Source of the DNA: Phycisphaerae bacterium
Lineage (GTDB): Bacteria; Chloroflexota; Anaerolineae; 4572-78; J111
NCBI GenBank assembly: GCA_028285035.1
Contig: JANQQF010000164.1
Location: 1 to 33,114 of the forward strand
DNA length: 33,114 bases
Direction: 5' to 3'
Below the pieces are notes generated by a model. The model had not been told where the DNA came from, did no database searches, and saw only the letters and a list, made by a program, of their open reading frames with translations. Numbering within the stretch: the stretch's first letter is position 1; each line of letters begins with the position of its first letter. Positions 22,468 through 29,941 of the stretch are shown here, piece by piece. The position numbers and the translations under genes are program-made.

Positions 22468-22684
22468 CTCAGTAATTTGACCAAACCAACTAGCCCTTTA
22501 AAGTAGAAAGTGTATTCCAGCCTGAATTTGAGGGTTAAATCAATATCCATCCTAATCGAGTGTAAGGCATCTCACCGATGTTCATACAACATTCCTTATC
22601 ATAAAAGACATAAGGTCAAAAGTTTAGGGTTAGGGGTAAGAAGTTATTTCTGTATCACCCTTAGCAAAACAAAAGGATTGTTAA

Positions 22685-23860
22685 ATGAACAGACGTTTGA
22701 TACAAATTATAGGGTTGATCGGAGGTGCCCTTCTCTTAGTGGGATGTGGCACGATTCAGCAAAATGAGCCACTCCCCCAAATTGAAGAAACGGCTCAAGT
22801 TGTTGAGCCAGATGAACAGAACAGCCAAACTGAAATCGCTCCCCTCAATGATGCTAAGGAAGAGACGATCGCAGAGATAATCGAGACGGGCGAAAGTGAG
22901 GTGAAGGTAAGTGAGGTAAGCAATAGTGGTAACGCTTTTGCGTTACAACGATTACCCCCCTTGGACCACGAGTTGGACGAAGGGGAATACGTTTGGAACC
23001 AACTCTTGGCCCGCGATAGCATCCGCCCCATTTATGAGCACGAATTAGAATTTACAGATGCCTCCAGTGCCCCATATGAGGCTGAAGAGTTGGTTATTGG
23101 GGTCGAAATCAATGGCGAGGCCAAAGCCTACGCGATTGGGCCACTGAACAGCCGAGAGATGGTGAATGATACGGTGGGCGGCATACCCATTCTGGTGACG
23201 TGGTGACCGATTTGCTATACGGGCATGGTTCATGACCGACGTGTAAATGGGGATACCTTTGTATTTGGGAATCAAGGAGGGCTTTTTCGAAATGCAATGA
23301 CGTGGTTTGATCACGAAACGGAAAGTGTTTGGAGTCAAGTTTGGGGCCAGTCAATCGCGGGGCCGTTGAAAGGCACAACGCTTGATCTAATCCCAGCGGC
23401 CATTGTGCCGTGGGAAACGTGGAAGACCGAACATCCAAACACAGTGGCACTCATCAATGATAAAACCGGGCTATTCAGTCGTAAGGAGCGACCGCGTGAT
23501 GGCTGGGTGATTGGGATCACCATTGGCGAACATCAGAAGGCATTTTACTATAAAGCGTTGACCGAAGTCGGCGTGCTCAACGATTTTGTGGGACCCTATC
23601 CCGTGGCCCTCTATGCTGATGCTGAAACCCGTAACGTCCGAGCTTATCTACGGGAGGTGGATGATCAGGTGTTGACTTTGGCTTTGAGCGAAGATGGGAA
23701 ACAATTGATTGATGATGAAACCGGAACCAAATGGAGTATCGCCCAAGGTATCGGCCAATCAGGTGAATTTGAGGGTAAAAATCTCCTCCTCATTCCCTAT
23801 CTCTCTTCATTTGATTGGGCTTGGCTCGATTTTCATCCTGACAGTGAGTTTTATGAGTAG
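22685..23860 (+). CDS. DUF3179 lipoprotein, candidate selenoprotein (in-frame TGA at 23204-23206)
   Basis: A 391-residue exported protein read through one TGA. Residues 1-21 form a lipoprotein signal (NRR, hydrophobic core, LVGC lipobox, Cys21), so it is lipid-anchored outside the cytoplasm. Residues ~30-95 are an acidic linker, the rest is DUF3179. Family members carry a C-P-x-C motif after a VTY-like strand; here the codons run VTW-TGA-P-I-C-Y, so TGA stands exactly for the first Cys (residue 174, partner Cys177). The same frame then continues with full family sequence (MVHDRRVNGDTFVFGNQGGLF, ESVWSQVWGQSIAGPLKG, VPWETW) to a normal stop. Cys21 and Cys177 are the only other Cys. AAGGA is 7 bases before the ATG. 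Most likely a U-x-x-C redox selenoprotein; alternatives are a nonsense mutation or base-call error. selA, selB and selC are not in the window. Confidence 0.75.
23220..23238 (+). promoter_or_regulatory. Candidate bacterial SECIS hairpin
   Basis: Stem: C220-G238, G221-C237, G222-C236, one G-A mismatch, then CATG (23224-23227) with CATG (23231-23234), closing a 3-base loop GTT (23228-23230). The loop begins with G, and 21 bases separate the TGA from the loop, inside the 16-37 range described for bacterial SECIS elements. Positions are last three digits of 23xxx. Short, so chance is possible. Confidence 0.5.
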
Positions 23861-23985: not shown

Positions 23986-24360
23986 TGAGCTGACCCGAAA
24001 GTTAGTACCAGTTAGAGTGAGAGGATGTTAAGTTGTTGGGCGAACTCATCTGGCGTGAGATAGCCCAAAGAACTGTGTGGACGAAATGAATTGTACTCAA
24101 GACCCCACTATTCAACCAACTGCTGGGCCTCGGCTCGATTAACAAACCAATACCGGTTCAGACATTCAGCCCTGAGTTTGCCAATAAAACTCTCGATGAA
24201 CGGGTTCTCCCAGGGGCTATCTGGGGTGATGTAGAGCGTGTCACATTCTTGGTCAGCCAACCAATCCCGAATAAGTTTAGCAATAAACTCAGGCCCATTA
24301 TCACTGCGCAACAAGGCGATTAGGGGGACATATCTGCTGGACATTCTTTCGGGGGGTGCA
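23986..24360 (-). mobile_element. Internally deleted IS3-family remnant
   Basis: Holds the C-terminal third of an IS3-type OrfB on the minus strand. The left end reads TGACCCGAAAGTTAGTACC (from 23991); the right end, read on the minus strand, has CACCCCCCGAAAGAATGTCC (24339-24358), a similar sequence. These look like the two terminal repeats with most of the element lost between. Boundaries are approximate. It fills most of the 635-bp gap between the DUF3179 gene and the ABC exporter; the rest of that gap is AT-rich with no gene. Confidence 0.65.
24012..24339 (-). pseudogene. IS3-family transposase OrfB fragment (rve domain)
   Basis: Retains the end of the DDE integrase core: LRSDNGPEFIAKLI holds the second Asp, SPWENPFIESFIGKLR the Glu, followed by YNSFRPHSSLGYLTPDEFAQ, the usual C-terminal motif. 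The first Asp and the whole N-terminal part are missing. A TAG (24108-24110) breaks the frame between LVE and WGLEYN, with the frame resuming unchanged to TAA at 24012-24014. Not functional. Confidence 0.85.
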
Positions 24361-24495
24361 ACTTCTGGACTCTGCACTTATGGTCGCCCTGTCACGGGTA
24401 CATCGAAAATTTGAATTCCCTATCAACCCCATACCCCTACATTTTAAATTATCCCCCCTCTCCATTAGAATACTCTCTCAATCTATGGAGACCCT

Positions 24496-28887: not shown

Positions 28888-29941
28888 ATGATGAAACACC
28901 CCATCGTTGATGGCCATCTTGATCTGGCCGAAACAGTTACACTCTTTGGGCGAGATATTACCCAAAATGTAGCTGATATCCGGGTATCAGAGCAACGCTC
29001 GGCCAATCAGGCAACAGTATCGCTACCAGAACTGGAGCGAGGTGGCATCGCTGTAGCCATCGCGACGGTGACACCTGGCTTCTTGGTGGAAGACGTCGGC
29101 CCTGATTTTCAGCCCAAGTCTGCGCTTTACTCAAGCCCGGAAGAAGCTGAAGCAAATGCCTTATCCCAGATCAACCTCTATGAACAGTGGGCGCGTCAGG
29201 GTCGTGTCAGGCTGATCCGCTCCAAACTTGATCTCGAAGACCATTTGCAATTGTGGCAAGAGGACAACAGGCCTAGTATTTTTGATGGAGGGCGCTGATC
29301 CAATTGTGAGGGTGAGCGATTTGCGTGAATGGTGGAATCGCGGTTTACGACTGATCGGCCTCACCTTTGGCGACACCCGTTATGGGGCTGGGGTGGGTGG
29401 AGGTGGGCGCACTTTTAGGCAAGCGGGCCTGACCGAGGACGGGGTCCATTTGCTCGAAGAAATGGCCGCGCTGGGCTTTATCTGGGATGTGACCCATCTG
29501 ACCGAAACGGGGATGTGGGAGGGGCTGGCCTTGGATATTGGACCCATCTGCGCTACTCACGCTAACGCCCAAACGCTGAGTCCCACCGACCGTCATTTGA
29601 GCGATGGCATCATTCGTGAAATTGGGGCCAGAGGTGGGGTGATCGGTCTTGTCTTGTACAATGGTTTTCTCGAGCCAAATTGGCTATCAGACAAAACTAT
29701 TGCGGTGTCGCTCGCTGAGCAGGGTCGGAAACAGGCTGAGTATATCGCTGGGCTTACCTCCTGGGCGTGTGTGGGCATCGGCTCAGATTTAGATGGCGGG
29801 TTCGGTTTTGAGGAGAGTCCTCCCGAAATTAATACTGTAGCAGATATTGGCAAGTTTGGTGCTGTCGTTCCTGATGAAGCCCAAGCTGGTTTTTTGGGCG
29901 GCAATTGGCTAGCCTTCTTGAGGCGTTCGTTGCCCGATTGA
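28888..29941 (+). pseudogene. Membrane dipeptidase (renal dipeptidase family M19), frameshifted
   Basis: Zn-dependent dipeptidase of the M19 family, in two frames. The first part (28888 to about 29270) has VDGHLDLAE, the His-x-Asp metal motif. The second part, one base ahead, resumes with LVFLMEGADPI (Glu ligand), ATHANA (His ligands region) and GIGSDLDGGFG (Asp) and runs to 29941. Both halves together give every metal ligand and a full-length protein, so one base gained (or two lost) near 29262-29275 is the only fault. No obvious programmed-shift signal (no slippery run with a stop directly after it). Likely a recent pseudogene or a sequencing error. The gene sits between the dehydrogenase and GNAT genes in a tight run. 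Confidence 0.85.

Follow-up and report, generated by a model that had tools for sequence, protein, structure and literature searches.

A DUF3179 lipoprotein gene with an in-frame TGA at its redox motif is very probably a selenoprotein gene of an already listed family

A single TGA interrupts an otherwise open DUF3179 lipoprotein gene in the window, a 33,114-nucleotide stretch of DNA from an assembly labelled Phycisphaerae bacterium (lineage Chloroflexota; Anaerolineae). Is that TGA read as selenocysteine (Sec), and if so, what might the protein do? The gene and the features within it that bear on the first part of the question are as follows.

22685..23860, plus strand: putative DUF3179 selenoprotein gene, 391 residues from an ATG start, with selenocysteine predicted at residue 174
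22685..22747, plus strand: candidate lipoprotein signal peptide ending at Cys21 of the lipobox L-V-G-C (residues 18-21), a motif match only
23204..23206, plus strand: TGA, the probable selenocysteine codon, residue 174, position 1 of U-P-I-C; the column comparison gave TGA in 68 of 80 loci and a Cys codon in 12 of 80

The 392-codon frame at 22685-23860 contained two stops, the internal TGA at codon 174 and the terminal TAG, and AAAGGA was present at 22672-22677, 7 nt upstream of the ATG. The initial annotation had described a lone TGA in an intact frame that takes the place of the leading Cys in the C-P-x-C motif of DUF3179, and both points were borne out; its call of a lipoprotein holds as a motif match. 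The read-through product matched Pfam DUF3179 (PF11376) with 201.3 bits (E 3e-59) against a gathering score of 27, which places it in the family, and the best-matching stretch, residues 112-259, includes residue 174. When the window protein was searched against Pfam at E up to 10, DUF3179 was the sole match, with no Rieske or thioredoxin model, and NCBIfam had no family for it. Neither Rfam, at the gathering score, nor ARAGORN gave a match in the window DNA.

Elsewhere in the window, stop usage among 17 checked genes was 11 TAA, 5 TAG, and 1 TGA. An M19 dipeptidase gene at 28888-29941 was apparently frameshifted (28888-29298 and 29228-29941), through either decay or assembly error. Pieces resembling a broken IS3-type transposase core, recognised by eye, were present on the minus strand at 24002-24377, with the DUF3179 gene on one side and an ABC transporter gene on the other.

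Named genome contigs were scanned with an alignment of close homologues, and the best 80 of 122 matching loci were used to read the codon at the aligned column. This was the check for TGA in other genomes that the initial annotation had proposed, and the column held TGA in 68 loci, TGC or TGT in 12, and TAA or TAG in none. Stops scattered over close relatives, which were to have counted against Sec, were not seen; among the 69 TGA genes (window included), L036 alone had a further stop within the part aligned. By record title, 47 of the TGA loci were Chloroflexi or Chloroflexota (including Anaerolineae, Caldilineae, Dehalococcoidia, and SAR202). The remaining 21 formed a single, mainly Acidimicrobiia tree group with some Cys rows mixed in, and its titles included Acidobacteria (2), "bacterium" only (2), Actinobacteria (1), and Nitriliruptorales (1). 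In both Chloroflexota and Acidimicrobiia, TGA forms were common among the loci recovered here. In viral contigs one stretch matched the pattern, and there was no relative.

The nearest relative was sought through MnmG in 17 genomes; a further search covered 10. The closest MnmG was that of G001 (Chloroflexi isolate J111, which carries locus L002), with 80% identity over residues 3-430. The runner-up, from G029, was 53% identical, and the other genomes of the 17 gave weak or no matches. The DUF3179 proteins of the window and L002 were 65-67% identical. The window thus probably comes from a member of the Chloroflexota related to J111.

Sec-type DUF3179 genes are often truncated in databases. Of 120 listed homologues (321 found), 12 start at window-protein positions 181-182, 7-8 residues past the Sec codon, as expected wherever a gene caller takes the TGA for a stop. 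Five homologues (P0012, P0016, P0027, P0028, and P0036) start with MHDR(R/H)V and seem to have extra sequence directly behind the region of the redox motif; judged by their protein sequences, these genes are perhaps also truncated at a Sec codon. Some members carry the NCBI label "DUF3179 domain-containing (seleno)protein", and the one checked, the plasmid locus L001, has TGT at the column.

The machinery for Sec insertion, which the initial annotation had proposed as a test, was sought in relatives: selB and tRNA-Sec in the genomes of 50 of the 80 loci, and selA and selD in 15 TGA-locus genomes. SelB scored over the cut-off in 48 of the 50 genomes (36/38 with a TGA locus and 12/12 with a Cys locus) and in 2 of 14 controls. 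The best tRNA-Sec match reached at least 57.3 bits in 42 of the 50 (30/38 TGA-locus and 12/12 Cys-locus genomes) and at most 47.1 bits in the other 8, the dividing line at 57 bits having been set by eye in the gap between these values. We take the weak matches to be ordinary long-arm tRNAs. By the Rfam cut-off, tRNA-Sec was present in 43 of 50 related genomes and 5 of 14 controls, and all 4 tRNA loci examined with ARAGORN were called tRNA-SeC(tca). SelA was over the cut-off in 14 of 15 TGA-locus genomes (1 of 14 controls) and selD in 12 of 15 (2 of 14 controls); every one of these 12 selD genes contains a single in-frame TGA, and that of G019 is split across two contigs. In G001, the nearest sister tested, selA and selB were present; in this genome, whose completeness is not given, tRNA-Sec matches did not exceed 47.1 bits and no selD passed its cut-off. 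One TGA-locus genome, G021 (locus L022), had neither a clear tRNA-Sec nor a selB over the cut-off. On relatives, the test thus came out in favor of Sec for all four components. Given that the machinery was also present in Cys-locus genomes, TGA in the DUF3179 gene cannot be predicted from SelB alone.

A SECIS-like hairpin lies just downstream of the TGA.

23220..23238, plus strand: SECIS-like hairpin, stem 23220-23227/23231-23238, loop GUU at 23228-23230, beginning 13 nt past the TGA

The window hairpin has one G.A mismatch (23223/23235) and a possible lower-stem extension (23210-23215/23243-23248). Numbered from the T of TGA, the stem runs from nt 17 to nt 35 or 36, and two pairing registers were seen: most Chloroflexota-type genes use one, and the Acidimicrobiia group uses the other, as do the window and several more genes. 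GU at nt 25-26 was present in 68 of 69 TGA genes but is not diagnostic, because 12 of 13 Cys genes (L001 included) share it. The published bSECIS rules, as coded, were also tried as a stand-alone test and did not discriminate: 21/21 Acidimicrobiia-type genes and 25/48 Chloroflexota-type genes passed, as did 12/13 Cys genes (L001 included) and 127/300 recodings of the window gene. Because Cys genes and recodings passed, we dropped these rules in favor of a stability test built on recodings and on a group of Cys genes.

In that test, the folding energy at a fixed position was compared with 400 synonymous recodings per gene, with L001 omitted. By this measure the stem, unlike GU, was diagnostic. 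Mean z was -2.69 for the 48 Chloroflexota-type TGA genes (window included), -3.06 for the 21 Acidimicrobiia-type genes, and -0.06 for the Cys genes, a small control group of 12 loci of which 9 belong to one close clade. The hairpin reached p <= 0.05 in 40/48, 20/21, and 0/12 of these genes, respectively. Synonymous entropy at codons 175-186 compared to elsewhere was 0.84 vs 1.53 bits in the 48 Chloroflexota-type genes (window included), 0.56 vs 1.32 bits in the 21 mainly Acidimicrobiia genes, and 0.68 vs 0.84 bits in the 12 Cys genes (L001 omitted). Individual p values were 0.43 for the sister L002, 0.33 for L020, and 0.085 for the window; the hairpin is strong at group level and weak when the window is taken by itself.

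A tree of 106 rows was used to follow the Sec and Cys forms (69 Sec and 37 Cys, with L001 omitted and 25 of the Cys protein rows hand-picked from the 120 homologues). The Sec/Cys label required at least 6 changes on this tree, which indicates that the two forms of DUF3179 appear to have switched repeatedly. Some loci carry DUF3179 genes in tandem; Cys copies directly precede a Sec copy in L034 and L066, and in L028 the copy that follows is itself a Cys form.

Taken together, the exchange with Cys at the column, the constrained hairpin, and the Sec machinery in relatives indicate that the TGA at 23204-23206 is very probably a selenocysteine codon. If it were instead a true stop produced by a nonsense mutation, the gene would be broken, and the frameshifted M19 gene and transposase-like remnant nearby do indicate that decay or sequence error occurs in the window. 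However, the TGA is shared by 68 of 80 relatives, another stop occurs in just 1 of the 69 TGA genes, and the sequence past the TGA is conserved and constrained at its synonymous sites. Single substitutions elsewhere in the gene could have created a stop in 155 of 3510 possible cases, yet the TGA is at this codon in the window and these relatives alike, in keeping with the initial argument that a chance nonsense mutation was unlikely. A pseudogene is thus very improbable. A single-base error of sequencing or assembly would have had to be repeated at the same codon in 68 other named-genome loci, which makes that explanation next to impossible. Genome-wide reassignment of TGA to a different amino acid, as in codes 4 or 25, would fit the fact that TGA terminates just one of the 17 checked window genes; however, those genes, up to 1092 codons long, have no internal TGA, relatives without the TGA have Cys at the column and not Trp or Gly, and Sec machinery is present in relatives. 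We regard reassignment as extremely improbable.

With selenocysteine as the preferred reading of the TGA, the second part of the question concerns the protein, in which two homologous repeats were recognised.

22994..23470, plus strand: first DUF3179 repeat, residues 104-262, which holds UPIC; predicted Rieske-like beta fold
23471..23857, plus strand: second DUF3179 repeat (residues 263-391), a homologue of the first that lacks the redox motif; Rieske-like beta fold predicted

In the predicted fold, UPIC is in the turn between strands 3 and 4, away from the positions of the Rieske cluster boxes, with strand order matched by eye. The C-x-H and C-x-x-H boxes themselves were found in neither the window protein nor the DUF3179 family consensus. 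Alignment of 20 Rieske domains by hhalign gave a probability of 0.3% for repeat 1 and 28.5% for repeat 2, and a sequence-profile search of the PDB with the window protein gave no match at E up to 1.

Links to thioredoxins were found among Cys forms. The homologue P0062 consists of thioredoxin/AhpC-TSA domains fused to DUF3179, and a search with it gave the same combination in 106 of 120 listed rows (656 found), a count that includes the query and is biased by the use of a fusion as the query. Of these fusions, 104 had a CxxC-like motif in the thioredoxin part, 104 had CPxC in DUF3179, and 101 had an export-like N-terminus; nearly all were Cys forms, and the 12 rows named by organism were archaeal (Woesearchaeota, Aenigmarchaeota, and others). 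By motif and by eye, a gene with a thioredoxin-like WCGPC motif was present 200 bp upstream of DUF3179 in L012, and thioredoxin-like motifs were present approximately 2.2-2.4 kb downstream, on the opposite strand, in L060 and L062. In the gene neighborhoods of the DUF3179 loci, where recurring clusters were counted by number, no widely conserved partner was recognised. An export-like N-terminus was possible in all 68 TGA genes for which upstream sequence was covered, 38 of them with a lipobox, in a lenient test that accepted any upstream start codon yielding a lipobox or a hydrophobic stretch.

The thioredoxin fusions and export-like N-termini led us to infer an extracytoplasmic selenol/thiol oxidoreductase with thioredoxin-fold partners; DUF3179 is likely, by inference from sequence, an exported redox lipoprotein acting with such partners. 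SelB and tRNA-Sec, with the hairpin just downstream, would read the UGA at codon 174 as selenocysteine by the standard bacterial route. In the exported lipoprotein, the first of the two Rieske-like domains arranged in tandem would hold the U-P-x-C pair, which would serve as a selenol/thiol redox center passing electrons to or from thioredoxin/TlpA-type domains outside the cytoplasm. Our confidence is high that the gene product is an exported DUF3179 lipoprotein, with UGA 174 read as Sec through SelB, tRNA-Sec, and the hairpin, to give a presumed U-P-x-C redox center. A wider proposal is tentative and, in our judgment, somewhat doubtful: that DUF3179 could be an undescribed class of extracytoplasmic oxidoreductases, with tandem cluster-less Rieske folds, a U/C-P-x-C redox turn in the first copy, a dedicated TlpA/AhpC-type thioredoxin partner, and Sec widespread in Chloroflexota and Acidimicrobiia.

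The main rival to a redox role accepts that Sec is inserted and has the UxxC site bind metal rather than carry out thiol/selenol chemistry. The tables of two reviews list UxxC or CxxU for metal-handling selenoproteins, namely a cation-transporting ATPase and a mercuric transport protein (PMC9312934, PMC13188914), and metal binding is an unlikely reading to which we still give real weight. The frequent fusion to thioredoxin/AhpC-TSA domains favors the redox role, although it is not decisive.

The initial annotation had also called the protein a candidate new selenoprotein. At family level this fails, as the tables of both reviews (PMC9312934, PMC13188914) list DUF3179/pfam11376 as a selenoprotein family with UxxC/T and without a function, and credit it to Zhang and Gladyshev 2007. 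A further mention of DUF3179, in the literature searched, was a single table row. What stood of that annotation, with strong support, is that Sec takes the place of the redox Cys in an exported DUF3179 lipoprotein; the novelty at family level did not stand. The window gene is very probably a real selenoprotein gene and a new member of a family already listed.

The value of these results lies in the wider distribution of DUF3179 and in the hints about its structure and partners; for a domain of unknown function, the repeats, the predicted Rieske-like fold, and the fusions to thioredoxin domains add up to a redox hypothesis that can be tested. The main text of PMC13188914 contains no word beginning Chloroflex- and neither Actinobacteria nor Actinomycetota. 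Within the literature searched, outside which most subscription papers lie, papers naming DUF3179 yielded no report of the Chloroflexota/Acidimicrobiia spread, tandem duplication, Rieske-like fold, or thioredoxin-type fusions; DUF3179 and Rieske never occurred together in one paper; and papers on selenocysteine or selenoproteins in Chloroflexota or SAR202 did not mention DUF3179.

Compared with known systems, the window protein differs from Rieske-fold proteins (e.g., 2qpz, 3gce, and 8hn2) in lacking both cluster boxes; Foldseek E-values to them were not significant, and their sequence profiles barely match DUF3179. TlpA/AhpC-TSA thioredoxin-fold proteins are joined to Cys-form DUF3179, but they have a different fold and are absent from the window gene. 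With the bacterial SECIS, as modelled in the Fig. 2 legend of PMC13188914, the window shares a hairpin after the UGA, a distance of 21 nt to the loop, and G as the first loop base. In contrast to that model, the loop is 8 nt long with G third in most Chloroflexota-type hairpins, and 23 of 48 genes fail the rule as coded. The DUF3179 selenoproteins tabulated in the two reviews (PMC9312934, PMC13188914) belong to the same Pfam family as the window protein and have UxxC with Sec first; the tables credit them to a study of a deltaproteobacterial symbiont, whereas the TGA loci found here comprise 47 of Chloroflexota type and 21 of a mainly Acidimicrobiia group.
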